From a virus, in the IMG/VR virus record IMGVR_UViG_3300024348_000104, positions 1 through 40,410 of that record: 40,410 nucleotides of DNA; one strand, written 5' to 3'. The notes below the pieces were generated by a model. That model saw nothing but the letters and a program-made list of their open reading frames with translations, searched no databases and was not told the origin of the DNA. The translations under genes were made by a program, and so were the position numbers. Of this stretch, positions 9,594 through 36,200 are shown in pieces. Numbering within the stretch: the first letter of the stretch is position 1; the number at the start of each line of letters is the position of its first letter.

Positions 9594-12335
9594 TTAGGCT
9601 GTTTTATAACGGCCGTTCATGTTTTGTGTTGTACCTACCTGCACGCTGTCCATCATCACTATACCTTCTTTATTGATTAGTTGGTCGATAGCTGATTTTA
9701 CTTCGTTCATTACTGCTACTAATGGTGATAAATCAATATTTACAGCACCACCACCGCTACTTTCCCCACCAGTTAAATTAGTACCTACTTTAATTTTACC
9801 ATCAGCACCATACATTGCTTTATCATTTGGATCTAATTGAACTGATCCAAACCCTCCAGACATTACTGGTCCTTTGCTTGGGTCAATTACCCCGTCTTTC
9901 ATAGCATATCCGGCCAAGGCACCCATAACTGCTGCTATTCCTGCAATAATTGCTACAGCACCTATACCTAAAGTCATAGCAGATGCTGTTGCTACGGTTG
10001 CTGTTGCTGTTGCTCCAGAAATAGTAGCTTCTGTACTTTTTAATCCTATTACTCCTGGTAATATCGCTAGTTCTCTTGTTTTAGATATTAATCCCATTTT
10101 AGAAAGTAGAGCTTTGCCTCTTTCAACAATCATTTCTTTTAAAGCATAACCATATGCAAATGTTCTAGTTAATAGTGATTCCTTCTCTAATGCTGAGCCT
10201 AATGTTTTGAATGATAATTTTTCTCCTTCAGTAGCTAAAGATATTGCTGCTTGGGCATTGCCAAATGTGGTTGCTGTATTTTCTGCTATTTTGCTTGTTA
10301 AAGAAGCTGCTTGATATCCTGCTTTTCTACCCATTAATGATGCTGAAAGACCTTCAGTCACTGCTATTGCTTTACCTATTCCATTTATAGCCATCATTGT
10401 TCCGTAAATACCTAAAAATAATCCTCCAATATATTTAAGAGGAGTAGCCATATAATTAATTATATTTAAGGCTCCACTTAATAAATCTAAGAACGAACCT
10501 AAAGGACCTGCTAATAAATCACCTACAATTCTTTGTAACTTTTCCATAGCAGCATTAAACTTATCTTGAACACTTTGTCTTTCAAGAGCTTGTGCGGCTT
10601 CATCTGCATTTATTTGGGCTAATGACTTACCAGATTTAACAGCTTCCTCTCTTTTTCTTAATTGTTCTGATAATTTATCTGATGTTGTTCCTAAAGCTTG
10701 AGCATAAGCATTTTGTGCTAATACATTCATTTTAGAAAACTTAGCAGCAGTCATACCTTGATTAGCTAATTCTTGAGCTACACCAGCCATATCACCTTGT
10801 AATGCTAATGCTCTAGCTCTTTCTAAATTTAATGCTTGGCCTGTTAATAATTCTGCTTTTAATTCATTTTCAATAGATGATTCAAAATTCAATAATGAAT
10901 CTGCTTGTGATTTGGTATCTTCTAATGTAGTACCTAATGCTTTCATAGCCACTACAGCCTTAGCTATACGTTCAGGATTATACCCTAAATTAGCAGCTAA
11001 CTGACCTGATACTTTAACAGCCTCGGCCAATGTTGATCTAAAATCAATACCAACTCTAAGTTGATTTCTTGCTGTTGTTAAACCTCTAACAAATGATCTA
11101 TAAGTTTCTTCAGATGATTTACCTGATAATACAGCATATCTTTGAACTTGAGCTGCTTCATCTGCTTGTAACCCAACTTGTTTAGTTAATTTAATCTGAG
11201 TTGTAAGTTGGTCAGCTGTAAATTCGTATGCAAATCCTGTTGCTTTAACTAATTCACCAAAGGCTAGAGTTAAAGAAACTGTATTTACATTTATATCTCT
11301 GGAGGCATTTTGAATACCAACCATTCTTTCTCTAAAAGCATCTGCTCTATCAGCCCCATATCCTAATGACTTTCCTAATTTTACTGCTTGGTCGTTTGCA
11401 GTTAAAGCAGCATTTATAAAAAAGCCAATTACTGCTTCGGGAGATTTTAAATTGTCATAGAGTCCCTTTGCTAATACTGAGGCTCCTTTTAGTCCTATTT
11501 GTAATCTGTTAGTAAATGATGTTGATTTTTTACCACTAGCTTCCATTAAAGCTGCTAATTTTTCCATTTCATCTACAGCCTCACCAGCATTAAGATATTG
11601 ACCTATCCCTGGTAATTTAGATAGAGATTTAGTAATTCCTCCTAATAATCCAGTTGATTTTTCTATTTGTTTTCTTATTTTTAGATTTTCTTCTAAAAAT
11701 GCTATTTCTTTTTTCTGGGCTTCTATAAGTTCTTTGCTTTCTTTAATAGTTTCACGAGCAGTTTTTACTATGTTTTTTTCTTTATCTAATTGGTCTGTTA
11801 GACTTTTAACATATTTTTCTTTATCACTATTTAATCTTTGATTTTCTCTAATTTGATTTTGAAATTGTTGGGCAATATCTCCTCTTCCTCTTCTTAAGGC
11901 TATTTGCTTTTGAATTTCTAATTCTTGAGTATTTTCATCTAACTCATTAATTTTCTTTTTATTTTTTCGAATTTCATTATCTAAGTCAAGAGCTTTTTTT
12001 AAAGCTTCTTGTTTTTGAATCATTAATTTACTTTCAAGAGATAATTTACCATTAATGCTTGATGAAAAAGCATTCTGAGCTTTAGCTGCATTGTCTTGAG
12101 TTGCTGCTATTTGTTTAGCTAAATCTTTTGATTTAATTTGAAATCCTAGATATTTGTCAGCATTTGCTGATATGTCTTGAGATAATTTTTGTTGTTGTTT
12201 AACAGTGGCTAAGTATAGTTTTTCATCTTCCCCAATTTCTTTTAGAAGTTTTTTACGTGTATTTACTGTTTCTATTATTTTATTAGATAGATCAAGTAAT
12301 CGTTCACTGTTCTGTATATCATCAATTATAGCCAT
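9594..12335 (-). CDS. Tail tape measure protein
   Basis: At 913 aa this is the typical long tail protein that sets tail length and is ejected before DNA. Residues 1-225 are almost pure heptad-type coiled coil (many K/E/Q/L, for example NEIRKNKKKINELDENTQEL). The centre is Ala-rich and helical. Hydrophobic segments lie at about 625-665 (GPLGSFLDLLSGALNII and YIGGLFLGIYGTMMAING) and 795-825 (AMTLGIGAVAIIAGIAAVMG). The C-terminus has the DGVIDPSKGP...GGFGSVQLDP pattern common at the end of such proteins. Position supports the call: it follows tube and tail chaperone genes and precedes the baseplate genes. Using the usual 1.5 angstrom per residue, the tail would be near 137 nm; this is an estimate. 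It has its own late motif. Confidence 0.88.
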   Translation of the reverse strand: MAIIDDIQNSERLLDLSNKIIETVNTRKKLLKEIGEDEKLYLATVKQQQKLSQDISANADKYLGFQIKSKDLAKQIAATQDNAAKAQNAFSSSINGKLSLESKLMIQKQEALKKALDLDNEIRKNKKKINELDENTQELEIQKQIALRRGRGDIAQQFQNQIRENQRLNSDKEKYVKSLTDQLDKEKNIVKTARETIKESKELIEAQKKEIAFLEENLKIRKQIEKSTGLLGGITKSLSKLPGIGQYLNAGEAVDEMEKLAALMEASGKKSTSFTNRLQIGLKGASVLAKGLYDNLKSPEAVIGFFINAALTANDQAVKLGKSLGYGADRADAFRERMVGIQNASRDINVNTVSLTLAFGELVKATGFAYEFTADQLTTQIKLTKQVGLQADEAAQVQRYAVLSGKSSEETYRSFVRGLTTARNQLRVGIDFRSTLAEAVKVSGQLAANLGYNPERIAKAVVAMKALGTTLEDTKSQADSLLNFESSIENELKAELLTGQALNLERARALALQGDMAGVAQELANQGMTAAKFSKMNVLAQNAYAQALGTTSDKLSEQLRKREEAVKSGKSLAQINADEAAQALERQSVQDKFNAAMEKLQRIVGDLLAGPLGSFLDLLSGALNIINYMATPLKYIGGLFLGIYGTMMAINGIGKAIAVTEGLSASLMGRKAGYQAASLTSKIAENTATTFGNAQAAISLATEGEKLSFKTLGSALEKESLLTRTFAYGYALKEMIVERGKALLSKMGLISKTRELAILPGVIGLKSTEATISGATATATVATASAMTLGIGAVAIIAGIAAVMGALAGYAMKDGVIDPSKGPVMSGGFGSVQLDPNDKAMYGADGKIKVGTNLTGGESSGGGAVNIDLSPLVAVMNEVKSAIDQLINKEGIVMMDSVQVGTTQNMNGRYKTA

Positions 12336-12361: not shown

Positions 12362-12385
12362 AAAAAGCGCCTATTTCTTAGGCGC
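12361..12385 (-). terminator. Rho-independent terminator after the tail chaperone genes
   Basis: A perfect 7-bp stem, GCGCCTA / TAGGCGC, with a 5-base loop lies at 12367-12385 and is followed on the coding strand by TTTTTA. The TAG stop codon of the downstream chaperone frame is inside the stem. It would separate chaperone and tape measure transcription. Confidence 0.8.
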
Positions 12386-12643
12386 TCTTGTTGAATATGT
12401 AGGTTTTGATACGTTTGGTGTTAGTGGTTTTGATGATGTTTTTGTTTTATTTTCAAGCTGTTTATTTTGTTTTTCAACAGCTTCTTTTTCTTCTTCATAA
12501 AACTTTTTCATCTTATGGAACGTAAATCGACGCAACCATATAGGCATATTGTATACTGTATTCCAATCATATCCACCTTTACCATGAAATACTATTTCAT
12601 GGATTTGGTCAAATATTATAGGTCTATTTTCCTGAGTCAGGCC
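12371..12643 (-). CDS. Frameshift extension of the tail assembly chaperone (GT-like)
   Basis: This frame is open from 12658 down to the TAG at 12371 and is in the +1 frame relative to the gp26-like gene that it overlaps. From the shift site it reads GLTQENRPIIFDQIHEIVFH, then GKGGYDWNTVYNMPIWLRRF, then a Lys/Glu-rich helix and a Thr/Ser/Pro-rich tail ending STRAPKK. The first ATG is deep inside (12547, the M of NMPIWLRR), and no ATG, GTG or TTG lies before it. The protein-like composition before that ATG shows the true product starts earlier. A 7-T run (12644-12650) in the overlap allows a shift of the gp26-like frame into this one, giving a fusion of about 334 aa. Phages commonly make tail chaperones this way just before the tape measure gene. 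The alternative is an ordinary small gene starting at 12547 (58 aa). Confidence 0.65.
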   Translation of the reverse strand, partial: GLTQENRPIIFDQIHEIVFHGKGGYDWNTVYNMPIWLRRFTFHKMKKFYEEEKEAVEKQNKQLENKTKTSSKPLTPNVSKPTYSTRAPKK

Positions 12644-13376
12644 AAAAAAAGTTAACTCCTACCGGAATAGAAATGCCCTCCTCTACATCTTCATGAAAAT
12701 AAGTCATATCAATATCTGGTTGGGTTTCTACATAATATTCGCGCAATGCTCTAGCATCTTTTGCTGTTAATCCATTATCAACAAAATCACGAATAGTTGC
12801 TAATTCTCGTTTACCATTAACTGATGTGATCATGTGTTTTAAACGAGTAGTCACTTCAAATGAAGCTTGTGGTGTAATTTTCTTTAAACCTTTAATTTCA
12901 GCATCGATTGCTTGCTCATCACCGTGCGTTAATAATTTAAACGTCACTGCGTTTCCTGACAATGGCATTGTAAATTCAAATTCATTTTTACCTTCTTCAA
13001 ACAATGAATAATCAACCTTTTTTTCTTTCAATGTTGATAAATCAACTGTGATTGTTTCTTCAGCGCCTGTAGACGGATTAAAATATCTAAATGGGTATTC
13101 AGCACCGTATCCCAAGATACGAGCACCTAACAGAATTGCGTTTTTATCGCACACTAATATATCATTAAAATTAACTGGTGTTACTATTAATGATTGCATT
13201 ACTCTGTTGAGTACTGATCCGTCTTTAATATAATTAGCATTAGTAAGAATATCTTCTTCCTTAGCTGTCATATATTTCATTTCAATTTCACCTTTAGAAA
13301 GTGGTGAGTCTTTTGGATATAATAATCCTTTTGAAGGTAACGAAACCGTTTCGGTTGGCATTTTAAATTCGCTCAT
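12624..13376 (-). CDS. gp26-like baseplate/tail assembly chaperone
   Basis: The 250-aa protein resembles the T4 gp26 (T4_baseplate) family. It starts MSEFKMPTETVSLPSKGLLY and continues with EIEMKYMTAKEEDILTNANY and ILVCDKNAILLGARILGYGA. The K-G-(E/x)-I-E-(M/x)-x-(Y/x)-(M/L)-T-A-K-E-E-D-I-L-T block and the D-K-N-A-I-L-L-x-A-R-I-x-G-Y-G block are the family's conserved parts. Its place between tube and tape measure is the classical place of tail assembly chaperones, and gp26-type proteins probably do that job in this lineage. The message ends AAC TTT TTT TGG near the stop, a slippery run leading to the extension frame. Late motif 23 bases before the ATG; terminator in the gap before it. Confidence 0.75.
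   Translation of the reverse strand: MSEFKMPTETVSLPSKGLLYPKDSPLSKGEIEMKYMTAKEEDILTNANYIKDGSVLNRVMQSLIVTPVNFNDILVCDKNAILLGARILGYGAEYPFRYFNPSTGAEETITVDLSTLKEKKVDYSLFEEGKNEFEFTMPLSGNAVTFKLLTHGDEQAIDAEIKGLKKITPQASFEVTTRLKHMITSVNGKRELATIRDFVDNGLTAKDARALREYYVETQPDIDMTYFHEDVEEGISIPVGVNFFWPDSGK
12644..12650 (-). other. Slippery T7 run, candidate programmed frameshift site
   Basis: On the coding strand the gp26-like frame reads AAC TTT TTT TGG. A +1 slip of the Phe-tRNA on the seven T gives TTT TTT GGC and continues into the open extension frame; a -2 slip reaches the same frame with one extra Phe. The -1 frame ends at once in TGA. A homopolymer sequencing error (true length 6) would give one continuous gene instead. 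Confidence 0.55.
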
Positions 13377-13409: not shown

Positions 13410-13441
13410 AAAAAAGAAAGACGTCTGCATAAGCAGACGCC
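13410..13441 (-). terminator. Rho-independent terminator after the tail tube gene
   Basis: A perfect 7-bp stem (CGTCTGC / GCAGACG, 13422-13439, 4-base loop) is followed on the coding strand by TTTCTTTTTT. It would end the abundant sheath-tube transcript before the chaperone gene. Confidence 0.85.
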
Positions 13442-13466
13442 TTAAGGAAAAGAAATATGAAGGGAA

Positions 13467-13952
13467 TTAGAAATTCAATACGCAATAATCCATAGCAATA
13501 GTAACTGATAAGTTAACTGCTGCTTCACTAGACCAATCGTATTCACCAAAGTTTGCAGTTTTTACATATGCACCTTTGATTACCCATTCGCTAACTATGT
13601 CACCTACTGGGCCTAATACGTTTAGTACTAAATCTTTTTTATAAAAATCAGAATAACCATCACGGCCAGTTACTGATTCGTGAGCCAAACGAGCCCATTC
13701 CATTACTGCTTGAGCACCGCTCGGAGTGATTGGGTCATATAATTCTAAAGTCATGTCTTGCCACTTAACCTTACCTTTTACTTTACGGTAAACGTTAATG
13801 TGATCTAAGATGATTTCACCTGCGTCAAACTGAGGAGACGCTGCTTTTTTGATCAAATATGCTGGAATACCATCTACATACATGATGAAACGGTTTTGCA
13901 CCTTTGGTTCGAAAGCGGTGAACATTATTTGGTTTGCATCTAATACAGCCAT
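13467..13952 (-). CDS. Tail tube protein (gp19-like)
   Basis: The 161-aa protein has the size and pattern of T4 gp19-type tail tube proteins. It includes EPKVQNRFIMYVDGIPAYLI near the start and KKAASPQFDAGEIILDHINV, followed by RKVKGKVKWQDMTLELYDPI. It ends with strands of the NFGEYDWSSEAAVNLSVTIA type. The N-R-F-x-(M/V) plus (W/x)-x-D-(M/I)-T-(L/V) strands build the beta barrel ring that stacks into the tube inside the sheath. It follows the sheath gene directly, the standard order, and a terminator closes the pair. A late motif lies 23 bases before the ATG, so tube may be transcribed above the level of the sheath. Confidence 0.9.
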   Translation of the reverse strand: MAVLDANQIMFTAFEPKVQNRFIMYVDGIPAYLIKKAASPQFDAGEIILDHINVYRKVKGKVKWQDMTLELYDPITPSGAQAVMEWARLAHESVTGRDGYSDFYKKDLVLNVLGPVGDIVSEWVIKGAYVKTANFGEYDWSSEAAVNLSVTIAMDYCVLNF

Positions 13953-17772: not shown

Positions 17773-18582
17773 TTAACAACCTCCTCCTCCGTTACAACAA
17801 GCACAATCTCCTTGTTGTACATCATTAGCCGCTATACAAGCAATACTTGGTGAATATGAACTATAACATAGGTCATATTGGTATCCTATTGCTGAATACG
17901 CTTTAATATAGTAGTCTGTATTTGCTTGAACAGTAAAAGTATAAGATAATGATGCAAGGTTAGCAGAGTGAGATTCAGGTTTCCATAAAGATTGGTTATA
18001 AATTAATGTGCCATTTGCAGTTATTTCTAAAAATCCATATCCATCACGATTCCATCCCCAGTTTGATGGAGCTGTTTCAATAGTATCTCTACCAAAATTA
18101 GCTTGAATAGCCATAACACTTCCTACCCAAACATTAGCATTCATTTGAGGAGAATATTGTGGTCCTCCAAAAAACAAGCCATTTAAAGGAGGACTATTAT
18201 TTGGATCTAATACTAATGATGATCCATTAACTTGACCAAATAAGTCTACATTTAAATAATCAACTCCCGCTACTTGTTCCATTTCAAATAATATTGAATT
18301 TTGGGTTGGTAAAGGATTTATATAATTCCAATTACATGTAAGCCATGGTGATGGACCCACTTGATATTGTCCTCCACCTATTGACCAAGTACTAGCAGGA
18401 ATAGATGGAAAATAGGGGTCTTGAGGACCTGTTCTAGCATATACTTTACTAGCAACTTCAGCACGAGTTAAACATCGATTGATAGCAGGAATGGTTTGAC
18501 CCGGTCTTAACCCAATCAAATTTTCATTCACCATCGCCTGGAGTTCATTTCCTGTTATCTGTAAATTTCCACTTCTGCCCAT
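17773..18582 (-). CDS. Hypothetical fibre-associated protein, 269 aa, Cys-rich C-terminus
   Basis: I do not recognise a family. The N-terminus, with MGRSGNLQITGNELQAMVNE and RPGQTIPAINRCLTRAEVAS, is followed by a beta-rich part typical of virion surface proteins. The latter includes GYGFLEITANGTLIYNQSLW and TFTVQANTDYYIKAYSAIGY and looks like a carbohydrate-binding-type sandwich. The end is CACCNGGGGC. Its ATG overlaps the stop of the collagen-like fibre gene (TAATG), so translation is coupled and the product probably attaches to that fibre, for example as a tip or adhesin. This is inferred from gene order. Confidence 0.75.
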   Translation of the reverse strand: MGRSGNLQITGNELQAMVNENLIGLRPGQTIPAINRCLTRAEVASKVYARTGPQDPYFPSIPASTWSIGGGQYQVGPSPWLTCNWNYINPLPTQNSILFEMEQVAGVDYLNVDLFGQVNGSSLVLDPNNSPPLNGLFFGGPQYSPQMNANVWVGSVMAIQANFGRDTIETAPSNWGWNRDGYGFLEITANGTLIYNQSLWKPESHSANLASLSYTFTVQANTDYYIKAYSAIGYQYDLCYSSYSPSIACIAANDVQQGDCACCNGGGGC

Positions 18583-20834
18583 TATTTAGATTCTAATTCT
18601 TTTATTCTAGCTTCTAATTGTTGAATTGCTTTTATTAACACACCTACTATTGAAGCAATATCCATTGCATTTTTCTTTGGAGTAGATAATTCTACTGGAG
18701 TATCTTCTGCAATGAAACCAATATGAGGTATTTTTTCTTTATCATCCTTATAATTAAATGTTACTATATTAACTTGATTTAATAGAGCTAAAGCATCAAT
18801 ATTAAAAGGAATAATATTATTTTTTAAATATCGAGATGAATTCTGCCAGAAACCACCAGCTTCAATAATATCTCCATTTACTCTAATCTGTGAGTTTGTA
18901 GTAGCTCCGGTTGAAGTACCATTACTAATCAATAATCTATCAGCAGTTGATGGTGAAATTGCATTAAATCCAGGACCTGTAGGGCCTTGGTTACCTTGTG
19001 GGCCTTGGTTGCCTTGAGGGCCTGCACCTGTTGGACCTTGATTACCTTGATTACCAGTACCTGTGGGACCTTGGTATCCTTGTGGGCCTTGATTTCCTTG
19101 AGGACCATCACCTGTAGGGCCTTGACGGCCTTGAGGGCCTGCATCTCCAGTACCTGTAGGGCCTTGATTTCCTTGAGGACCAGCTACTGTTGAACTAGGG
19201 CCTGTAGGGCCTTGACGGCCTTGAGGGCCTGCTGTTGTAGAATCAGTACCTGAAGGGCCTTGACGACCTTGAGGGCCAGCTGTTGTTGAATCTAAACCAC
19301 TAGGGCCTTGACGACCTTGTGGACCCGCTACTGTTGAAGCATCGCCTGTTGGGCCTTGACGGCCTTGTGGACCGGCCACTGTTGAAGCATCTCCTGTAGG
19401 GCCTTGACGTCCTTGATCGCCTTTTGTTCCTTGTATTCCTTGAGGGCCTTGGTTGCCTTGATCGCCTTTTGTTCCTTGTATTCCTTGAGGGCCTTGGTTG
19501 CCTTGTGGGCCTTGGTTACCTTGTGGGCCTTGAAAACCTTGGTCGCCTTTTGTTCCTTGAATACCTTGTGGGCCTTGGTTGCCTTGAGGGCCTTGGACTC
19601 CTTGTATGCCTTGTGGGCCTTGGTTGCCTTGCGGGCCATTTGGACCTTGGTTGCCTTGAAATCCTAAAGGACCTTGGTTACCTTGAGGGCCATTTGGTCC
19701 TTGATTGCCTTGAGGGCCATTTATTCCTTGTATTCCTTGAGGGCCTTGATTGCCTTGATCTCCTTTTGTCCCTTGAGGGCCTTGAATACCTTGAACAGAC
19801 ATGTCTGTTGAAAAGTTCCATGTTCCTCCACTTCTTAAATATAACTTTCCATAATCAGGATCTGATTGAGATAAACTGCCCCCAACCAAACCAAATTGTC
19901 CCTCGGGACATGAATTATCAGCTAACAATAAAGCTACTGAGTTATATATTTGATAAATTATAAATCCTTGTCCTGTTATTCCTTGGTAGCCTTGGTTACC
20001 TTGAGGGCCTTGTACTCCTTGTGCTCCATTACCTTGAAAACCTTGGAAGCCTAAAGGACCTTGGTTGCCTTGTTGTCCTGTTGGACCTTGATTACCTTGA
20101 TCTCCTTTTGTCCCTTGTATTCCTTGAGGGCCTTGGTTGCCTTGAGGACCTTGGTTGCCTTGAAGTCCAGTTGGACCTTGATTGCCTTGGTTGCCTTGAA
20201 AACCTTGGTCGCCTTTTGTTCCTTGGATGCCTTGTGGACCTTGGTTGCCTTGTTGTCCTGTTAAGCCTTGGTTACCTTGAAGGCCTTGGTTGCCTTGATT
20301 ACCTTGAAAACCTGTTGGGCCTTGGTTGCCTTGATTACCTTGAAAACCTGTTGGGCCTTGGTTACCTTGATTACCTTGAAAACCTGTTGGGCCTTGATTA
20401 CCTTGATTACCTGTAGGACCTTGATTTCCTTGATCGCCTTTAGCACCTTGATCGCCTGTATATCCTTGAGGGCCGAGTGGGCCTTGATTACCTTGATTGC
20501 CTGTAAATCCTTGATTACCCTTAATACCTTGAAGTCCTTGCGAGCCAACTTCACCTTGTACACCTATTGGGCCTTGGTTGCCTTGAGAGCCAACTACACC
20601 TTGTATACCTATTGGACCTTGAACGCCTTGAAGACCTAATGGACCTTGATTGCCCTGTGCACCTACGGGACCTTGAACACCTTGAGAACCTGTAGTTCCT
20701 TGAGTGCCTTGAAATCCTTGAGCGCCATTTGATATTGTGATTGCTGCTATGCTACCACTTAGTGACGTCCAGTTAGTGTCCATTTCCTGCCAGGTAAGCG
20801 GGCGTCCTAAAGTTGATCTTAAAGATAAAGCCAT
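18582..20834 (-). CDS. Collagen-like tail fibre with S74-type chaperone, 750 aa
   Basis: The N-terminus RSTLGRPLTWQEMDTNWTSL is a common virion-attachment start of phage fibres. Residues about 36-286 and 348-620 are Gly-X-Gln triplets (GNQ, GPQ, GIQ, GTK-GDQ). They are split by a 60-residue module (287-347) that is nearly identical to one in the 1443-aa fibre. The second tract has 16-aa units GPQGRQGPTGDASTVA and variants. The end, from about 666 (NSSRYLKNNII) to 750 (AIQQLEARIKELESK), fits a peptidase S74 chaperone with a trimeric coiled coil. Its cleavage site is SSR instead of SDxR, so self-cleavage may be lost. The late motif lies 22 bases before the ATG, and a terminator ends the preceding gene just upstream. 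Confidence 0.88.
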   Translation of the reverse strand: MALSLRSTLGRPLTWQEMDTNWTSLSGSIAAITISNGAQGFQGTQGTTGSQGVQGPVGAQGNQGPLGLQGVQGPIGIQGVVGSQGNQGPIGVQGEVGSQGLQGIKGNQGFTGNQGNQGPLGPQGYTGDQGAKGDQGNQGPTGNQGNQGPTGFQGNQGNQGPTGFQGNQGNQGPTGFQGNQGNQGLQGNQGLTGQQGNQGPQGIQGTKGDQGFQGNQGNQGPTGLQGNQGPQGNQGPQGIQGTKGDQGNQGPTGQQGNQGPLGFQGFQGNGAQGVQGPQGNQGYQGITGQGFIIYQIYNSVALLLADNSCPEGQFGLVGGSLSQSDPDYGKLYLRSGGTWNFSTDMSVQGIQGPQGTKGDQGNQGPQGIQGINGPQGNQGPNGPQGNQGPLGFQGNQGPNGPQGNQGPQGIQGVQGPQGNQGPQGIQGTKGDQGFQGPQGNQGPQGNQGPQGIQGTKGDQGNQGPQGIQGTKGDQGRQGPTGDASTVAGPQGRQGPTGDASTVAGPQGRQGPSGLDSTTAGPQGRQGPSGTDSTTAGPQGRQGPTGPSSTVAGPQGNQGPTGTGDAGPQGRQGPTGDGPQGNQGPQGYQGPTGTGNQGNQGPTGAGPQGNQGPQGNQGPTGPGFNAISPSTADRLLISNGTSTGATTNSQIRVNGDIIEAGGFWQNSSRYLKNNIIPFNIDALALLNQVNIVTFNYKDDKEKIPHIGFIAEDTPVELSTPKKNAMDIASIVGVLIKAIQQLEARIKELESK
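18970..19790 (-). repeat. Collagen-like repeat tract, fibre C second part
   Basis: About 270 residues of Gly-X-Y triplets, with Q in most Y positions. Includes five tandem 48-base units encoding GPQGRQGP(T/S)G-x-x-S-T-(V/T)-A. Strong nucleotide repeats make this a likely site of recombination or copy-number change. Confidence 0.85.
19791..19973 (-). repeat. Fibre insert module, copy 1 (FIIYQ...MSVQ)
   Basis: This codes for a 61-residue domain starting GQGFIIYQIYNSVALLLADN and ending GGTWNFSTDMSVQ. Copy 2 lies at 30648-30830 and differs at only about five residues. Confidence 0.85.
19974..20727 (-). repeat. Collagen-like repeat tract, fibre C first part
   Basis: About 250 residues of Gly-X-Y triplets, including repeats GNQGPTGFQGNQ in tandem. 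Y positions hold Q, T, K or I. The GTKGDQ unit recurs in most collagen tracts of the window. Confidence 0.85.
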
Positions 20835-21400: not shown

Positions 21401-21408
21401 ATAAATAT
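21401..21408 (-). promoter_or_regulatory. Candidate late promoter before the 154-aa gene
   Basis: The coding strand reads TAATATTTATACACGTAAAAA, touching the stop codon of the upstream dioxygenase gene. The core lies 21 bases before the ATG at 21379. Confidence 0.5.
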
Positions 21409-21998
21409 TAGCGATAATGTTCTCCCCCAAGCCACAACACAAATGATCTACGAGTTCCCACAGTTACTGGTGAAACACGATGCATCATGTATGAAGGGAA
21501 TATAACTACTGTACCTTTGCCGCGTGGTGCCGTGATAGGTTCTTTACCTCCTTGCCAAATATCCAAATCACCACCTTCATATTCGCTAGGATCGGATAAT
21601 TGGACTGTAATAGACACTTTACGGAGCGATAACATCCCAGGTCCAATGTCTTGGTGCCAAATGTAGTGACCACCTTCTGAAGCGTAGTATTCAGTGTATT
21701 GTATTTGTTCTGGCGCTGAATATAGGTCAAATCCCCATAAAGCATCATTTGCTTCAACAGCCATGTCCATTAGTTTACTGTATAACCAATCCCATCTTAT
21801 ATTTTGTGGGACCCATTTAATAGAAGATGAACGTGCTTCTTTATTTTCACCACCAATAGTGGTGGCTTCTACAAAATCAATATCATTCACATCTCTATAA
21901 ATTTTATTTAATTCTTCTTCATTAAACCCATTATCAAAATAGTAATAGTTTTGAAGATCAACATGTTTCTTTGAAAATAAATAACCTGTTTGTACCAT
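21408..21998 (-). CDS. 2OG-Fe(II) dioxygenase (PKHD / prolyl hydroxylase type)
   Basis: The 196-aa protein has the double-stranded beta-helix motifs of 2-oxoglutarate and iron dependent hydroxylases. H115-x-D117 lies in GGHYIWHQDIGPG, a distal H173 in SYMMHRVSPVTVGTRRSF, and R183 (TRRSF) is the 2OG-binding residue. Between them is the strand GGDLDIWQGG. The H-x-D ... H ... R set is complete, so it should be active. The length suits PKHD-type enzymes, which are common in T4-like phages. It is the last gene of the enzyme cassette and lies beside collagen-like fibre genes, so hydroxylation of Pro or Lys in fibres is possible. Other targets (host protein, ribosomal protein) are also possible. Confidence 0.9.
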   Translation of the reverse strand: MVQTGYLFSKKHVDLQNYYYFDNGFNEEELNKIYRDVNDIDFVEATTIGGENKEARSSSIKWVPQNIRWDWLYSKLMDMAVEANDALWGFDLYSAPEQIQYTEYYASEGGHYIWHQDIGPGMLSLRKVSITVQLSDPSEYEGGDLDIWQGGKEPITAPRGKGTVVIFPSYMMHRVSPVTVGTRRSFVLWLGGEHYR

Positions 21999-22011: not shown

Positions 22012-23049
22012 TTAGTAATTTGATTTTTTAAGTACAATATCGATATATTCATCAATATTCACCGGAGGTAATTCTTCGTTTGTTAAAATTCTTTCTTTAA
22101 TAGTTTCTTTTGGTTGCTTTGACCAAAACGCATGGTGAATTTCAGTTTCAAAGAATATGTTGTGTGATTCCAAGTCAGTAAATGCTTTTGATGCTCTACA
22201 TCCTAAACAAAATTCTTCACGAGGAAATAAAAATCCATATTTGCAATTTATAACTGAATTGGTTTTAAATCCACATCCTTTTATATCTTCAATTGCTTTT
22301 TCAAAATCAGTACCATATTGCCAATGGTCACAATGAACAAAGTTTCCAAATTTTAATGCAGCTGAGCCTAATTGTTTTCCTAAACCCGATGATTGTATTT
22401 CTGCTTGCCCCCAATATGGATTACCTTTTAATTCCATAGGTTCTCCAGCTTCATCGTAATATTCTTTTAATGGGAAAATTCCTACATCAAAATGTTTTTG
22501 ATTTCTACGGACAGTTGGGTTATTACCATATTCTCTTTCATTTAGAAAGAAAAATTTATCAGTTTCTTGTTTAATATTAGATTGCTTTATCCAATAACCA
22601 TATCCAAACTGTCTATCATCTACATCATGTAAGAATCTACGTAATTGTATTTGGTCTATTTCATTATTAGTTTCTAATAATTCTAAACAATCCATTAACC
22701 AAGTTTTATCAAATCCACTTATAGATTGTGGTAATGTAATCCAATCCCCTTCTAAAAAGAAAGAATATTCGTATAATTTTAAATGTTCGTTTAATTTGTT
22801 TATACCGGGACCTACACCTAAATTTTTGCCTTCACAAAATAAGTGAAAATTTACCTTATGACCCCATTTATCAATCATCTCATTAATTGAGCTTATAACA
22901 GGGCTATCATGACCACCATTAAAATATATAAACCAATTTACACCTTCTGGAACTATGGTGTTTTCTAAAAAACTATTAACTGTATCTATAAAATATTCAC
23001 CTCGCTTAGGTGCATCATGTGTTAAAGTTCCTATACAGAAATTTTCCAT
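22012..23049 (-). CDS. Glycosyltransferase-like (GT-A) protein, 345 aa
   Basis: The protein looks like a GT-A fold sugar transferase. It opens MENFCIGTLTHDAPKRGEYF, then WFIYFNGGHDSP (Rossmann-like strand), CEGKNLGVGPGINK (the N-L-G-x-(G/x)-x-(G/A)-x-N segment of family 2 enzymes) and YSFFLEGDWIT with an acidic E-x-D at 100-102 instead of DxD. Residues about 265-285 hold a Cys cluster (C-x-Y...PREEFCLGCRASK) of unknown role, perhaps zinc. It stands in tandem with a methyltransferase and two more glycosyltransferases. The family-level name is uncertain; the fold call is fair. Gap to the next gene 4 bases. Confidence 0.75.
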   Translation of the reverse strand: MENFCIGTLTHDAPKRGEYFIDTVNSFLENTIVPEGVNWFIYFNGGHDSPVISSINEMIDKWGHKVNFHLFCEGKNLGVGPGINKLNEHLKLYEYSFFLEGDWITLPQSISGFDKTWLMDCLELLETNNEIDQIQLRRFLHDVDDRQFGYGYWIKQSNIKQETDKFFFLNEREYGNNPTVRRNQKHFDVGIFPLKEYYDEAGEPMELKGNPYWGQAEIQSSGLGKQLGSAALKFGNFVHCDHWQYGTDFEKAIEDIKGCGFKTNSVINCKYGFLFPREEFCLGCRASKAFTDLESHNIFFETEIHHAFWSKQPKETIKERILTNEELPPVNIDEYIDIVLKKSNY

Positions 23050-23053
23050 AATC

Positions 23054-23608
23054 TTATTTTACTTGTTTAATCCAGCTTGTATCTTTAAATGTTTCATTTG
23101 GTATTCCAATAGTTTCTAATATACCATCTATAACTCCTTGCCAATTTTTATGAAAATCATGTCCACCAATAAATCCACCTTTATTGATTATTGGAAAATA
23201 ATTACGAATATCTTTTTTAATCTGATCATAAGTGTGTAATCCATCTATATAAATAAAATCAAACTTTTGTTCAATTAAATCATCAATAGCATCATCAGAT
23301 GTTTTGTGAATATGTTGTATATTATCAAAAGGAAGGATTGTATTATTAAATACTTTATGAACGTCAGTTAACTCCATATAGTTACAAGTGATATCATTTG
23401 GATCATAATCATTCATAAATGGATCAATAGCAATTACATTTTTAAAATGTTTTGCAAATATAATAGTAGACTCACCAGCATAAGAGCCAATTTCTACCAT
23501 TGTCATATTTTTAGTATCACTATGTTTTTGTATATGTGTAATTAAATCTTCTAATCCTTGTGAATAATACCCATCTCTCATTTCAAATAAATGTTCTTTA
23601 GTATTCAT
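23054..23608 (-). CDS. Class I SAM-dependent methyltransferase
   Basis: The 184-aa protein has the SAM-binding motif VEIGSYAGEST at 38-48, an acidic end of strand 2 (AIDPF at 60-64), and a middle FDFIYIDGLHTYDQIKKDI with GGFIGGHDF near 140. The Y-I-D-G-x-H-x-Y motif belongs to the Methyltransf_24 type, usually found in sugar and glycan gene clusters. It probably methylates a sugar or a sugar-linked group. It sits between two glycosyltransferase genes with short gaps (4 and 9 bases), so it works with them. Nothing missing in the core. Confidence 0.85.
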   Translation of the reverse strand: MNTKEHLFEMRDGYYSQGLEDLITHIQKHSDTKNMTMVEIGSYAGESTIIFAKHFKNVIAIDPFMNDYDPNDITCNYMELTDVHKVFNNTILPFDNIQHIHKTSDDAIDDLIEQKFDFIYIDGLHTYDQIKKDIRNYFPIINKGGFIGGHDFHKNWQGVIDGILETIGIPNETFKDTSWIKQVK

Positions 23609-23617
23609 GTATATTGT

Positions 23618-24265
23618 TTATAAATTAGTATATTTTTGTTGTAATTTTTGTATTACTGAATGGAAATAATGTACTTCTACCTGAAGTTGTGGTTCATATG
23701 GTCTGCTGGTTTTGCTTAATTCACCTGTTGCTTTTAAATTTTTAATATTATAAACTTTACGTTTAAAGAAATCTTTATTTAACCAATATAACATATCATC
23801 CCCAAAATATATTTTTAAATCTGATGGGATTATTTCGTAGTGTGATTTAGGCATTATCATCATACAACCAAATCCTAAACTGCGGCAAGTAGCATCTTCC
23901 AATTCCCAAATTTCATCATCAACATTCAGCGTTTGAGTGAGGTTTCTGTTGGCATCAAATCCTATCATTCCGTATTCGGGAAAACGGGAGATATTATTAA
24001 ATAACGTTTTTAAATTAATTGTTATGTCGTCGTTTAATAAACATATAGTATCATTTTTAGCTAAAGATACACCTAAATTCCAGGCGGGGTTTACAAATAT
24101 GTTTTCTGTTTGTCTAACAAATGTAACACCTTCTTCATTATAATCACTGTTAGCATTATCTATAATAATTAATTCAGCTCCTTCAACTTGACTATATTTG
24201 AAATCACGAATGGTTTCATAAATGCAATCTGATTGCCACAATGTTGGGATAATAATACTAATCAT
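23618..24265 (-). CDS. Family 2 glycosyltransferase, 215 aa
   Basis: The N-terminus MISIIIPTLW and ELIIIDNANSDYNE are the nucleotide-binding part of GT-A family 2. TENIFVNPAWNLGVSLAKND with CLLNDDIT (N78-D79-D80) is the classical N-x-G-x-x-x-A ... N-D-D pattern, and the acidic pair binds the metal and sugar nucleotide. The rest is a shorter C-terminal part than usual, including LGFGCMMIMPKSHYEIIP. The sugar donor cannot be told. It overlaps the 604-aa glycosyltransferase by 8 bases, so the two are co-translated. Confidence 0.88.
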   Translation of the reverse strand: MISIIIPTLWQSDCIYETIRDFKYSQVEGAELIIIDNANSDYNEEGVTFVRQTENIFVNPAWNLGVSLAKNDTICLLNDDITINLKTLFNNISRFPEYGMIGFDANRNLTQTLNVDDEIWELEDATCRSLGFGCMMIMPKSHYEIIPSDLKIYFGDDMLYWLNKDFFKRKVYNIKNLKATGELSKTSRPYEPQLQVEVHYFHSVIQKLQQKYTNL

Positions 24266-26072
24266 TATAAATGTAATTTACGTAGTTTTCACCATCACCA
24301 AACCTACTTTCAGCTGATAATGGATTGTTTGGATTGTGATTGTAAGCATAATCTTCAACTCCTAATTCTTCAAAGCGTTTTGCAATTCTATCATTATAAT
24401 GATACATAATCGATCTTACTCTACGTTGAATATCAGCACGAGATAAATCGTGTGTGTTTTGTCCTGTATGGTTATTATATATGAACTGAATGTAACCTAT
24501 TTTTGGTATTTTACATATTCTAGTGTGTAAGAATGTTCTTACTACTAATTCATAATCATCTGCAATAGCTAAATCTCTATTATGTCCGCCAATAGCGAAA
24601 TATGTATCTCTTCTCCAAGCACGAACGTGGTTTGGTACACCCACAATATGTCTTATTGTTTTTGGATTAATATTTTGAGTGATTGCTACATCCCATTCAC
24701 GACCTCTATATGTTTCTTTTCTATATTTACCATACCCAAAAGCAAATCCATCATCGTATGTTAATGATTCCCAATTTTCATTTAATTCAACACTATCATT
24801 AAAGAAGAAACCTGCGTCTGGATATGCTTTAGTAGCATTAATTAAATCCATTGTACAGTTATCAGTTAATAAGTCGTCATGATCTAATTCTGCTAATAAG
24901 AATCCTCTTGTTAAACAAGCGGCTCTGTATTTTGATTCACCAATAATTCCTCCTGTTTTTTCTCTAAAATCATATACTTTTACTCTTGAATCTCGTCTAG
25001 CTATTTCTTCAGCTATTTTAAGTGTTTTACCACCATCAGATGAATCATTTACTAATACCCATTCCCAATCCTCATACGTTTGTTCAAGTAATGAACGATA
25101 AGTACTCCATAATTTATCTCCAGTATTATATATTGGTGTAAAGTATGATACTAAATGCTCATTTGATGCAGTTAATATTTGGTTCATAGCTACGTTATAA
25201 GCTATGTCACCATTATCAGTAGTATCTTCTTCAACATTAAGCCATCTTTTTCTTACCTCTAATGGTTGGCAAGCTAAATTAGGAAACTCTCTAAAATGTT
25301 TACCAACAGTAATAATTGAATCCGGTTTAAATGATGTCAATGTACTTTCAATACTAATATCATTTGGTGTATATAATACATTTAAACTAGTATCCTCATA
25401 TCCTAAATGTTTAATACTTTCTAATTCTGATTGGCCATTAATATAAAGTACTTTAGGCACTTTTGCTTTTTTAACTGGTGTTAAACGATTATAATAACAC
25501 AGTTCAGAATGAATAAAATGAAATTTATCTGGGAATTGTTTATATAAATTTTCTATAAATACACCATCACCACAATATCCACCTTCATATTTTCCTTGTG
25601 TGTATAATGATTGTTTAATAACGTATTGAGCTGAGTCTATATGTCTTAATTTCATGTGTTCAGGACCTACTTTTCTAACATCCAGACCTGTAAAATCTCT
25701 TCCATCAATGCGCTGTTCATAAACGAAAGCCTCTTTATCAGAATTTGCTTCTATTTCCTTTTTGATTGTATCATAGAAAGAATGATGAACATAATTGTCA
25801 TCATCTAATATTACAATATAAGCATCTTGAAATAATCCGTCTATAATATCATTTAATTGAGGATATAGATAATCAGATCCATCTCCTTTTACAAAGTGAA
25901 ATTTAGTAGTAGGACCTTGCAATTTATTTAGTATTTCAGCATCAATATCTTTTAATGTTGTTGTATCAAAGATAATATGCCAATATACAACTACAGAGGT
26001 TTCAAATATTGTTTTTTGAATTGTTAATAAGTTCTGTGGGCGCGTACAACGCGTTAATATGTGTATTACCAT
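24258..26072 (-). CDS. Two-domain glycosyltransferase, 604 aa
   Basis: Two GT-A domains are visible. The first (1-200) starts MVIHILTRCTRPQNLLTIQK and has the acidic site VILDDDNYVHH (D90-D92), then GGYCGDGVFIENLYKQFPDK. The second (about 305-545) is a clear family 2 enzyme: VSYFTPIYNTGDKLWSTYRS, then LEQTYEDWEWVLVNDSSDGG and the metal site LLAELDHDDLLTDN (D397-D400). It ends with a GGHNRDLAIADDYELVVRTF region. A bridge at 205-300 may be a small domain. Two active sites suggest it adds two sugars in order, like bifunctional collagen hydroxylysine or polysaccharide enzymes. It overlaps the next gene by 8 bases and the upstream dioxygenase by 7. Confidence 0.88.
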   Translation of the reverse strand: MVIHILTRCTRPQNLLTIQKTIFETSVVVYWHIIFDTTTLKDIDAEILNKLQGPTTKFHFVKGDGSDYLYPQLNDIIDGLFQDAYIVILDDDNYVHHSFYDTIKKEIEANSDKEAFVYEQRIDGRDFTGLDVRKVGPEHMKLRHIDSAQYVIKQSLYTQGKYEGGYCGDGVFIENLYKQFPDKFHFIHSELCYYNRLTPVKKAKVPKVLYINGQSELESIKHLGYEDTSLNVLYTPNDISIESTLTSFKPDSIITVGKHFREFPNLACQPLEVRKRWLNVEEDTTDNGDIAYNVAMNQILTASNEHLVSYFTPIYNTGDKLWSTYRSLLEQTYEDWEWVLVNDSSDGGKTLKIAEEIARRDSRVKVYDFREKTGGIIGESKYRAACLTRGFLLAELDHDDLLTDNCTMDLINATKAYPDAGFFFNDSVELNENWESLTYDDGFAFGYGKYRKETYRGREWDVAITQNINPKTIRHIVGVPNHVRAWRRDTYFAIGGHNRDLAIADDYELVVRTFLHTRICKIPKIGYIQFIYNNHTGQNTHDLSRADIQRRVRSIMYHYNDRIAKRFEELGVEDYAYNHNPNNPLSAESRFGDGENYVNYIYND

Positions 26073-27001
26073 TCTACGTCAAAGAAAAATAGGTGAAAAA
26101 ATCTAGCATTTTCGATTGCATCTCCGAAATAGCCGGTTGCTGCGTGTATTGATTTTGAATCAAACATAACTAATCTATTATAAACATTTGCAACAGTATC
26201 TACTACTTCATATGTTGAGGAATCATAGAAGTTCATATTATTACTTAATCCTTTAAAAGTATTGTAATAATCGTCACCTTCAGTTTTATCAAATCTAGTA
26301 GCGCCTGTAATTTTGCTTTTATAGGTAGCAGTACCTGTTTGTAAAGGTGCATCTGGTGTTAAATATACCATGGCCGCGTACGTTTGAGAATCAACGTGAT
26401 ATACAATTGGATCCTGAGATGTGCAGTATTGGAATACTCCATTTGCATATGACTCATAATTCCAGTTTGTAATCTTCTTTCCTAAAATCTCTTCAAATTT
26501 TTCTTTAGTACCATCTAAAATAAATCTATCTGAACTGCGTTGTCCTTTATGATATCCTGATGGGTTAAAATCTAAATTATTTATTGCATATTCTCTTACC
26601 CATGATGGGTTTTTGTAGAAATTATCTACTACTATAATACCTTTTTTAGAAGTTTCATTGAATCCAGTATTAAATACTATCCATTTTTCAAATGTACCAA
26701 TAAAATTTACTACGGAATTATCTTGTAATACAAGCCCAACGGGCTTGTCTATGTCTTGTTTTCTGATAGTAAGTTTAAATCCAACTTCATCAGTTGGGAT
26801 TGTAGGATAAAATTCCTTTACATCCGGTCTTGATTTAAATACAGGATAGTGAGGTCTATTATCAATAAAAAATGAACCTACAGGTTGCATTATGTGTGAT
26901 ACCCATCCTGTAACTATGTAGTTGAATTCGTCAGATGTTACTGTATCAACACACCACAGCACGCCATCAACATTAGTTAAATGATTAATATGATCTGCCA
27001 T
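26066..27001 (-). CDS. 2OG-Fe(II) dioxygenase with N-terminal beta domain, 311 aa
   Basis: The C-terminal part (about 120-311) has iron-binding H202-x-D204 in IVYHVDSQTYAAMVYLTP, a distal H286 in FDSKSIHAATGYFGDAIENA and R300 in ARFFHLFFF. This is the set of a prolyl-hydroxylase-like enzyme. The N-terminal part (1-110) has VTGWVSH, SFFIDNRPHYPVFKSRPDVK and TDEVGFKLTI, similar to the beta-sandwich with an R-P-D-V ... F-P motif often placed before glycosyltransferases. It heads the six-gene enzyme cassette, is the first gene after a host-like promoter, and overlaps the two-domain glycosyltransferase. So hydroxylation and glycosylation are linked genetically. Collagen-like fibres are the likely target (inference). 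Confidence 0.82.
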   Translation of the reverse strand: MADHINHLTNVDGVLWCVDTVTSDEFNYIVTGWVSHIMQPVGSFFIDNRPHYPVFKSRPDVKEFYPTIPTDEVGFKLTIRKQDIDKPVGLVLQDNSVVNFIGTFEKWIVFNTGFNETSKKGIIVVDNFYKNPSWVREYAINNLDFNPSGYHKGQRSSDRFILDGTKEKFEEILGKKITNWNYESYANGVFQYCTSQDPIVYHVDSQTYAAMVYLTPDAPLQTGTATYKSKITGATRFDKTEGDDYYNTFKGLSNNMNFYDSSTYEVVDTVANVYNRLVMFDSKSIHAATGYFGDAIENARFFHLFFFDVEW

Positions 27002-27050: not shown

Positions 27051-30000
27051 TTATTTATTATCTACCAAATATGATATTTGTGATTTTAATTCTTCGATTT
27101 GTGTTTGTTGTTCTTTGATTGCTTCGATTAATAACGGAACAATTTTTTCATACTTAACTGTTAAGAAGTTTTCACCTGATTTAGAAACTCCTTTATCATT
27201 ATCAAATGGAGCTAGTCTTACAGCCTCAGGTAACACTACTTGAACGTCTTGAGCAAACACACCAGCCTCTCTTATTTCCATATCTGGTTCCCACCCATGT
27301 TGTCTACCTAATTCATTCCATTGGTAAGTCATACCATTTAATGAATTAACTTTTGCTAAAGCATTTTCAATTGGTTGAATGTTGTGTTTTAAACGTTTAT
27401 CAGAGGCATATGCTATAATGTCATAATAACCTCTCATATGATTGTCACCATCTCCTATAGAAGCTGTTATTGTAGCAAAATCTGAGTTGTTATAAAATCT
27501 TATACCATTATAACTGTAGTGTGCTCCTAATTTAATACCTGTATGGAAAGCTATATGTAAATCGGGATATGGATGAGACCATCCTCCTGTTTGACGAAAT
27601 ATAGCATAACTATAATCAACACTAGGGTTCCAAAATATTCCGTATGGGTGATCAACATCAACAGTATATCTATTTCTTAAATAATATGTATTAGCAGCAT
27701 AAAATGAAGGTGAATCTCCTGTACCAACACTTTGATTAATTGTATATGCTGTAATATTACCTGCTGTTGAAGCATATGAAACTGATTGTCCACCTATGTT
27801 ACCAGAATGTATCATTTCTACCCAACTTCTTGGAGTTGCCCATGAACTTCTCCAAAAGAACCTATTATCAGCTTCACCAGCACAAGCCATTTGATATCCA
27901 TATACATTAGTATTATTCTGATGATTATAATGAGCTACTTGGTGACCTACATAGTGGCTTGAACCACCCGGTGCGTTACCTGGTGAACTCCATGAATCAA
28001 TAAACCCAGAACCCCAGTTAGAAAACATTACATTAAAATCAGTTTGACCATAACCCATCGTACCATTACGATAATTTGCAGAACCACCATATCTACTAGC
28101 ATATGGGGAATTAGCAGACATTGGGTTCATATCATTGTAAGCCATAGTAAATGCACTTAACTTAAGTAAGTTAGATGTACCATTAGGATCTAAATAATAT
28201 CCTGTATCTTGTTGATCATAGAAGATATTAGCTCTCATAGAACCTATAACAAGTAGATCTCCACTAGGATTTATCCCACCAACTGTTTGACCTGCTTCTT
28301 CAGAATAAAAATGGAATGATTGTGTTCCTATTAATTGACCACTCGTTCTTTTACCTACATACCACCCACTACCAGTACCACCAATATAACGAACCATTGC
28401 TTCATATCCATTACCTGGATTTATTGTAAGATATTTATGACTCGCTCCTGTTATGTTTATAGGTGTAGTATTTGCACCAATCCAACCAATATAACTAGCA
28501 TCATTAACACTATTACCATTTAGATACATAGTACCATACAACCAGTTAGTACTTTGAGAATAAATACCTGCTGGGTGGTTTGATGCTTCTCCTGTTCCTC
28601 CTACGTTACCACTTCCTCTATATGATGTTGCAAAAATGGTTCCATCACTAGATCTTATTTGTACAGCATCACAAGAGTATACTGGAGAACTAGCTCCACT
28701 AAACCATCCAATATTGTAACGAGTTCCATCTACTCTTCCTGAATTATGGGTTACTGTAGCAGCATTCCCACTTATATTTGTTTGGTCTCCTGTATTTGTT
28801 CCTGATAAATTTGCTCCTGATATATTACCACCAGCTGAAATAGCTCCGTTAGCTCTAATTAGTCCATTTGTCCAAATACCTAGCCCAATAACAGTAGCAA
28901 CGACACCAGCATTTGAAACTGCCATACAATGCTGAAGTAGGTATCCTGTATTAAGTTGACGCCCTGAATAGTCGTATGACCAAGACACTCCATAAAAGTT
29001 AGCTAAAGTACCACCAGCTCCAAGTACGTAAGCCGGTCCCATTGCGAAAAAACCCTGATGTACATCTGGGTTATAAACACCTACTAATCCATATCCTGCG
29101 CCCCCCGTATTAAGTGTAAAGTTAGTAGCTGATTGCTGCCCTGTTGCTGTAGCAGCATTACCAGATATGCTAATTCCCCAAGTACCACTATTATATACTG
29201 CTGCATATCCATTTACATAAGTTGTAGCAGGTAATCTAACAGCAGCACCACTTGTTGTACCATCAACAGTATTTACATATAAATCAGCCCAAGCGTTTAA
29301 TGCATTATTATGAGCAAATACACCTGCTATTGAAGCATACGTTCCTAAAAAAGCTGCTTTGTCTGATGTGGAGTTTTTAGATAATATTCTACCTCGCCAT
29401 GCTGCACCTGTTCCATTTTCTTGGTTTACTACTCCATCTTGGAGTGCTGTAAAAAATCCACCTGTTGCAGTAACTGAACTTGCAAATGTAGCACTACCAT
29501 CACTGAATATAGTTAAATTATGTCTAGAAGCTGTGTTATCATAACACATGTAAAATCTATTATCACCAACACCCATGGAAAAAGTTCTAGCCGTTCCTCC
29601 ATTATCACCTCTAAGATTTATTACACTATATCCAGTTCCATACATTGATAGTTGAGTGGTAGTAGAAGCATTACCCCATGCTGTATTTATTGGAGATGTA
29701 TTATTAAGACCAACACTACCTCTGAAAATAGCAGAAGTCGTTGAGTTAAAATCTGCATAATATGTAGTATCGTTAGAGTCATAGAATATAGGAGCTCTAA
29801 AAGAAGTTGGAGCTAATACATATCCACTTTCTCCATAATAAATTTGTAAAGCTCCATAACCACCACTACCAGCATTAGTATGAGTAGTAAAGTTATAAGC
29901 TAGTCCATTTGCTCCTTGAACTGCAGACCAAGCACGAGACATAAAAGTCATCGTACTATAGTCCGTATTAGTTACACTGTTAAATCTAATTTGTGTAGCA

Positions 30001-33255: not shown

Positions 33256-36200
33256 TTATTTTTGAGACTTTAATTCGTCAATTTCTGCTTTTAATTCTTT
33301 GATTGCTTCGATTAGTATACCAACTATGTTGCCGTAGGCTACACTTAACATTCCATTACTATCTTCACTTACTACTTGAGGTAATATTTGTTGTATTTCT
33401 TGTGCAATAACACCCGTATTTTGAGATTTATCTTCGATATCAGTACGGTTATAATATACACCTCTTAATGCTAATGTTTTTTCTAAAGCATTATCAATAG
33501 TAACTATATTTTCTTTAACACGAGCATCTGAGTATGCAGTTACATTACCGGATGCTGTAAATGATCCAGCAGTACTAACATTACCGTTTTTATATAATCT
33601 AAGAACATTATCTATTTGAGAACCACCATTATTACAACCAAATACTAAATCATCTGATGAATCAAATCCTACATAACCAACATACCAGTTACCATCATTG
33701 TTACCTCGTTCACGTCTCCATCTTAAACCACCCCAAGTTGAAGTTGAAGGCATAGTAAATGCTAACCCTTCTGCCCAAGAAGCTGACTGAGGAGATATTG
33801 AGATATTATTTCCAAAACTAACTGAACCCCCACCACTATAAATTGTTGGTGTAACTAAGTAACTATTAGCATAAATTATACCAGTAGCTCTCATATTACC
33901 TCTTACATCTAATTCATAAGAGGGCGAGTTAATAGTTGGATATGTTCCTAAACTACCAATGGCTACACCAGTTTCTGTCATTCTCATAACAGTTTTACCT
34001 TGATAACCTGCTATACCATTGTGAGGATTATAGTTTGTATTACCATAAGCCGTATTAGACATACCAAAATCTAATCTACTACCATTACCAGAAGTACCTA
34101 TAAGCCATTGTCTAGCATCTAATCCGTTAAATACAAATTGAATTGTAGGTCCATGGTTTGTATTACTAGTTTCTGTATGATCTAATACTAATGCAGGATA
34201 AGCCCCTCTAGCATATATTATAGGACGCTTATTAGCATCAACTAATGTATAAGGAGTTGATACATTACCATCTAATCCAACAATAAATCTTGTACCATTT
34301 GCACTATCCCATCTAAAACCACCAATTGTTGTATCATTAGAAACAAAATTTATATTTCCAGATGATGTAGACATTGACAATGTACTAGAAGCGTATACAC
34401 CACCTCTACTCCAAGCTGCCCCAAGTCTAACTTCACCTGTATAGCTTTCTGGATTAGTTATAAATAAATTTCTTGTACTACCAAAAGTCATATCTACTCC
34501 ACCACTATTGCCAAATTTTATAGTGTTAGTATATGAAGTAATGAATAAATCTCTTGAAGAACTTTCAATTCTATTATAAGTACCATCCCAATATCCTATT
34601 ACTAAACCAGGAGCATTAAATCTAGTACTAGTTGTAATGGCATTATAAGTAACATCGTCTGTAGTTCTTACATATTGATTCATGTTCCATGCATATCCTG
34701 CATTACCTGTATGCAATATTGTCCACCACGGTGTAGACCAAGTACCTGCATATCCTGATCTCCATACTAAATTAGTTTGTCCAGCATGTCCTGCAGCTAT
34801 TTGCCACATTGTGTCTGATGCTGCTAAATGAAGGACAGGTGCATAAGTCGGATTACCACCAGCACTATTTTCATTTCTTATTACTCTTGAATATCCGCTG
34901 TCTATATTTGTAGAGCCGGTACCTAAAAATGTAGTATTTAATCCAGCTACTGTAGCTGCACTTGTAATATAATTTGAACCATTAGTTAGTTGATTGTTGT
35001 TTGTTGGAATAGTAGGTAAATTACCTGAATGATAAATAGTTTGGTTTTTCCATGTTAATGTATTGTATCCTATTGCAAGTCCATTAGCAGCAGTTGCACT
35101 AGCTACACCATATCCAGCTGTAATGATTGCAAATTCAGATTGAGAACCATCTGTATCAGCAGCTAGAGTAAAAGTTCCAAAGCCCTGAAGTAATCCATAA
35201 GATAAAGCAGTTGGTTGACTATTTGCAGCCGCTGTTACTCCACTACCCATTAATATAGCTCCCGTCATTGTACCACCAGAGAGTGGTAAAGCATAAGAAG
35301 AATAATTAGCAGTATGTAATACTAAATATCCACTATCAGTAGCATAAAAATTTCCATCTGCATATACATCAATAACCCCACTTGATGAACTAAATCCAAA
35401 TCTACTATTACCTCCAGTAAATGAATACCCCGGGTATCCCCCACCCCCTGCCCAAACACTTGTACTAAATAAATAACTTGATGAATTACCTAAAGCTAAG
35501 GTTGGAACATCTAATGCTTTATATGAAGTAACACCATCAGATTTAAAACCCATTATTTTTTCCCAACCTGATGAATAAATTCCAAATGCTCTAGCAGAGC
35601 TAAAATGTATACCCATTCCATATCTTCCAAATACACCTTGTGTAGAAGAAGCTTTTATAATTCCTTCATCCCACCCAGTATCCACGGGACCAAACCTTAC
35701 TAAAGGCCACTGAACAGTATCTGTGTTTGTAAACCCAAATTGAAAATACCCACCAGCATTTTGATAGTAATTAGTACTAGTTATAGTACCAAGTCCAGAA
35801 ATATCATTACCATTCATAGCTATACTACCATTTGCTTGCATTCCTCCATTTATAATTTGAAGTACTGGGGATGCTGCTAAAGGTCCTGTAGGGTAAGCTT
35901 GGTTATAAAATCTAATACCTCCATAAGCACTATGAGCTGAAAGAGCAAGACCTGTATGATAACTAAGTGTCCATGGATAATATCCCCCAATTGCTGTTGC
36001 TCCGCTAGCAGATGTAGATTGTCCTATACCGTACCAACTATCTGGCGTGTTTCCCCAACCATATGCTGTAGTAGCATTTCCAGTTAAATTACCAATAAAA
36101 TTACCTGAGTTAATGGTTAATCCAGAGGCATTCATGGTCATAATTCTAGTCCAATCACCACCCCCAGTGCCACCATTGTTTCTCCAAAATGAAAATTCAC

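Follow-up and report, generated by a model that had tools for sequence, protein, structure and literature searches.

The G/GT chaperone of phage lambda coats the tape measure protein through its G part and brings in tube subunits through its T part (PMC5009743). A review of 2016 described G-T frameshifting as conserved "except T4" (PMC5009743). Tail assembly chaperones (TACs) of T4-like phages were identified by Vladimirov, Gautam and Davidson (Virology 2022), as cited in PMC10274946 and PMC12846349. According to the account of that work in PMC10274946, in some T4-like phages a short gene and a long, fused one take the place of a frameshift; polyT −1 signals are reported for TAC-N genes of T4-like phages in PMC12846349. 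With regard to shifts in the other direction, a +1 shift was considered "very likely" for the TAC of the haloarchaeal myovirus HSTV-2, and the +1 site of prfB, the gene of release factor 2, is CUU_U, or UUU_U in a minority of species (PMC5009743).

The locus described here is probably of the same TAC-N/TAC-NC type as lambda gpG/gpGT and has the same position between the tube and tape measure genes. It differs from that system in that its shift would be +1 instead of the usual −1, and in that its chaperone belongs to the T4 gp26/gp51 family (PF12322). In T4, gp26 and gp51 are two divergently oriented paralogous genes, whereas here there is a single gene with a probable frameshift, the long form having a C-terminal extension that matches that of gp51. 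With prfB the locus would share the P-site slip from YUU to UUU or UUC, at a shift site of the form YUU_U. Unlike in prfB, where the A site holds a stop codon, the A-site codon of this lineage is UGG (137 of the 148 loci; three others have TAC or CTC), and the lineage has no conserved Shine-Dalgarno stimulator; the chaperone gene is not homologous to prfB, and autoregulation is not known for it. Since conserved stimulators are missing, the likeness to prfB is confined to the slip itself. The likeness to HSTV-2 would lie in a +1 shift at the equivalent gene position. A reading of the sequence alone (hereafter the sequence-only reading) had proposed that the locus would tie T4 gp26-type proteins to the G/GT mechanism. 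Going by the papers that cite Vladimirov et al. (2022), this tie had already been published, and the locus represents a known system in a conserved +1 version. That study may already include some of the lineages considered here. What appears to be new is an RF2-like +1 shift at YUU_Y conserved over a large environmental lineage.

Arrangement of the chaperone locus

The sequence analyzed, referred to as the window, is the whole of positions 1 to 40,410 of IMGVR_UViG_3300024348_000104 (40,410 nucleotides). The phage has a contractile tail. All elements of the locus lie on the minus strand. The zero-frame gene (12624 to 13376, with its TAG stop at 12624-12626) encodes TAC-N, a gp26-like protein of 250 aa that matches PF12322 and phrog_150. 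Upstream of it is a tail tube gene (13467 to 13952; phrog_4542 tail tube, 1e-23), and the adjoining downstream gene encodes the tape measure protein (9594 to 12335, matching at 1e-37 the protein so annotated in Flavobacterium phage immuto). The overlapping frames thus sit between tube and tape measure genes, as is typical of the TAC-N/TAC-NC layout.

Near its end the zero frame reads AAC TTT TTT TGG CCT GAC TCA GGA AAA TAG. The slip site, TTT TTT TGG, occupies 12642 to 12650, with the P-site TTT at 12645-12647 and the A-site TGG at 12642-12644; the run of seven T within it (12644-12650) is as the sequence-only reading gave it. A −1 shift at this site reaches a TGA two codons on, and for this reason only a +1 or a −2 shift leads into the open frame. 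In the window the +1 frame has no stop between a TAG 17 nt 5′ of TGG and another at 12371-12373, and the part of it that follows the site (12371 to 12643; 90 codons and the stop) encodes the T domain. The expectation of a protein-like second frame of about 90 residues with a late first methionine was borne out, the earliest ATG being codon 33 past the shift. Joined to TAC-N, this frame gives a protein of 334 aa, TAC-NC, which is the length that had been anticipated.

Terminator-like hairpins flank the gene on both sides. One lies between the tube and TAC genes (13418 to 13443), and a similar hairpin is present in 73 of 130 relatives and in 0 shuffles; the other lies at the end of the T frame, ahead of the tape measure gene (12363 to 12389), with similar hairpins in 89 of 129 relatives and, again, in 0 shuffles. 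These hairpins suggest that the chaperone gene may be metered separately, between the abundant tube protein and the scarce tape measure protein. A terminator is annotated at the equivalent place beside the chaperone gene of SP-15.

The slip site and the second frame among relatives

The relatives comprise 80 metagenomic loci from a first round and 78 more at 54-88% identity; 148 distinct loci, isolates included, were analyzed for the slip site, and it should be noted that related loci are not independent observations. The +1 layout is present in 80 of the 80 first-round loci, one of which has an indel earlier in gp26 (L031; about 10 codons before the slip site, inside the first frame, and probably an assembly error). 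Isolates with the +1 arrangement are immuto, Mel-JY01, RM378, SP-15, LIS04 and GXN1. Scans with the single proteins of XacN1, SP-15 and RM378 brought zero new relatives, and bacterial genomes, when scanned, yielded no more than two matches, each 15 residues long and chance-like.

TTT YTT TGG is kept in 137 of the 148 distinct loci, and several of the 148 lack the 7-T run (CTT TGG, CTT TAC, CTT CTC). The +1 variants are TTT CTT TAC (L149 and L154), TTT CTT CTC (L166), TTT CTA (LR756508), TTT TTT CAC (SP-15), TTT TTT AGT (LIS04) and TTC TTT CGT (GXN1); all of these non-TGG sites have the form YUU followed by Y. The two codons that precede TGG are TTT in 136 of 136 loci and then TTT in 130 or CTT in six. 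TTC, which accounts for 17% of the other Phe codons of the gene, occurs at these two codons in 0 of 136 loci, and by codon entropy both are the least variable among 77 degenerate columns, the minimum of the gene. Tryptophan, and with it TGG, is almost absent elsewhere in the gene in the 136 loci. Dual coding does not explain the conservation of the slip codons, since translation has not yet entered the +1 frame at that point. Across the family, the closest +1-frame stops lie 11 nt 5′ of TGG and the closest zero-frame stops 9 nt 3′ of it; the change of frame is therefore confined to about AAC TTT TTT TGG CCT. In XacN1, RAS14 and probably LR756511 (L087, L090, L091) the second frame lies in −1, not +1, the sites of XacN1 and RAS14 being GCT/AGT TTT TTT AT.

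The second frame matches proteins of annotated phages, namely Microcystis phage Mel-JY01 (3e-13), the Flavobacterium immuto phages (3e-12) and LR756508, an uncultured jumbo phage (6e-5), at an identity of only 31-43%, and each match immediately follows a first-frame homologue. Over the 27 codons from the overlap to the first common ATG, dN/dS is approximately 0.16 (3,800 pairs from 136 distinct loci). By these comparisons the second frame is under purifying selection from just past the slip, and its conservation is far beyond chance. With respect to site and second frame, assignment to the TAC-N/TAC-NC frameshift systems rests on conservation, selection, and the positions of starts and stops.

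Runs of seven T are classic sites of error; the locus might really be a simple fusion gene split by a sequencing or assembly error in the homopolymer, and the sequence-only reading had asked for a sequencing error there to be excluded. However, 136 distinct contigs and the genomes of several isolates have the same frames, and loci without the homopolymer (TTT CTT TGG, CTT TAC, CTT CTC) change frame alike; an error of this kind is ruled out by relatives that lack the 7-T run yet keep the frame change, and we assign it a negligible probability. A −2 ribosomal slip, or transcriptional slippage on the T run, would arrive at the same frame in the 7-T sequence of the window, and the sequence-only reading had left +1 and −2 side by side. 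Here the relatives with CTT TGG, CTT TAC, CTT CTC, TTC TTT CGT and TTT CTA speak for the former: they have no long T run, re-pairing after a −2 slip is poor at their sites, and a +1 move from YUU to UUY always works. Because the homopolymer-free relatives re-pair well only by +1, the +1 slip is favored over the −2 half of the earlier proposal. A −2 slip and transcriptional slippage are together quite unlikely, although in the window itself −2 keeps a small formal probability.

It could also be argued that the second frame is a separate gene, re-initiated from a start of its own, given that a TTG start is annotated in Mel-JY01 and a late start in immuto, and that some earlier ATG, GTG or TTG is available in the second frame of 72 of 136 loci. 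In the other 64, however, such a codon comes no sooner than 29 codons after the slip, well into the conserved region; the position of the start is not conserved, and the common internal ATG lacks a Shine-Dalgarno sequence in 118 of 120 loci. Moreover, the slip site is exactly where conservation of the +1 sequence sets in, and re-initiation leaves the conservation of TTT YTT unexplained. Selection ahead of the first ATG, the absence of early starts and the missing Shine-Dalgarno sequence make a separate gene very unlikely indeed. Neither a six-T version of the run nor a homologue in which the second frame has a conserved start of its own and no slippery site was found among the 148 relatives. 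The comparative evidence thus strongly supports the original proposal of a programmed frameshift in a gp26-type chaperone between tube and tape measure genes.

Kinship with T4 gp26 and gp51

The first frame scores 26.4 bits against PF12322, above the curated cut-off of 24.5, and matches phrog_150 at 1.1e-10. T4 gp26 (208 aa; 215.6 bits) and T4 gp51 (249 aa, with an extra C-terminal segment; 177.5 bits) are both full-length members of PF12322. Fusing the two frames extends the phrog_150 match of the window from profile positions 10-209 to 10-264 of 282, into the part of the profile that only gp51 fills, and the match of LR756508 reaches position 273 of 282. Against the gp51 family, a profile built from the fusion proteins of nine phages reaches 1.3e-7, and the match runs up to the very end of gp51 with the T domain included; the profile of the window group was not significant against gp51 or gp26 alone, only the more diverse one being so. 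The T domain by itself matches the gp51 C-terminus weakly (P 0.008; 2 of 150 column shuffles are equally good), and the commonest weak matches of single T-frame sequences are to the tail assembly chaperone and gp51 (baseplate hub assembly catalyst) families. Judged by these profile comparisons, the T frame is the counterpart of the C-terminal extension that separates gp51 from gp26, a link drawn from the more diverse profile and from the longer phrog_150 match, not from the T domain by itself. In immuto, Mel-JY01 and RM378 this C-terminal domain is mis-annotated, since the long form has been split or missed there.

TAC-N and the T domain were modeled as two separate parts. The AlphaFold (AF2) model of the first frame has a pLDDT of 90.8, and a comparison with 898 PDB chains ranked YqbN first (Z 5.6) and the HK97 tail assembly chaperone second (Z 4.2). 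Neither Z is high enough to be relied on by itself, and both matches span residues 1-95 only. The specificity of these low-Z model matches is, in our opinion, supportive. The T domain is predicted to be helical with moderate confidence, and a fold search with its model gave nothing significant (best E 0.04).

Proposed mechanism and its implications

Taken together, the observations are best read as a two-form tail assembly chaperone, TAC-N plus TAC-NC, made by a +1 slip, to which we assign a probability of about 0.92. We infer from the comparisons above that ribosomes shift here, that they do so infrequently, and that the products act as chaperones. Towards the 3′ end of the gene, a small fraction of the ribosomes would probably advance by a single base, most likely through P-site +1 slippage at YUU_Y. 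Most ribosomes would finish at TAG and release TAC-N; in a minority, the peptidyl-tRNA-Phe on the UUU before UGG would move forward one base and pair with UUU again at UUU_U (or, in some relatives, with UUU at CUU_U and with UUC at CUU_C). GGC CUG ACU would then be read, yielding TAC-NC with its putatively helical T domain. If the parallel with lambda gpG/gpGT holds, the tape measure protein would be coated by many copies of TAC-N and a few of TAC-NC, whose T domain would recruit tube subunits.

At the loci of the relatives, RNA structure 3′ of the site has a mean z of only about −1, and the consensus fold is empty. A 9-bp hairpin 42 nt 3′ of TGG, whose pairs recur in many loci, was rejected: it coincides with the codons for HEIVFHG and breaks when these residues change. 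Analogously, a conserved upstream Shine-Dalgarno sequence was not found, SD-like sequences being present in 33 of 130 loci. Conserved 3′ structure and Shine-Dalgarno both being absent, the site therefore has no known booster of its rate beyond itself.

We put it at slightly better than even odds that in a widespread T4-related environmental lineage, which includes Flavobacterium phages, such a minimal +1 signal (YUU and then a sense codon, in most cases UGG, for which no stimulator is known) sets the ratio of TAC-N to TAC-NC. If so, the T4 gp26/gp51 family holds +1, −1 and two-gene answers to one stoichiometry problem, the two forms being supplied apparently by +1, by −1 (XacN1, RAS14 and probably LR756511) and by the two genes of T4. 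Several routes within one family would make it a natural setting in which to test the evolution of tail chaperone stoichiometry, and the slip site itself would be the natural equivalent, at a sense codon, of the frameshift of release factor 2.

Elsewhere in the window, on the minus strand, are fibre proteins with collagen-like G-x-y repeats (18582-20834, 27051-31382 and 33256-38178), accompanied by 21408-21998 and an endosialidase-type chaperone; 18582-20834, the sole fibre gene scanned, matches Pfam Collagen at 1.4e-65. A 2OG-Fe(II) oxygenase-like gene (PF13640) adjoins the collagen-like fibre genes, and its product might hydroxylate the fibre proteins. A cluster of glycosyltransferase, methyltransferase and DUF6445 genes (22012-27001, minus strand) lies within the same tail fibre region.
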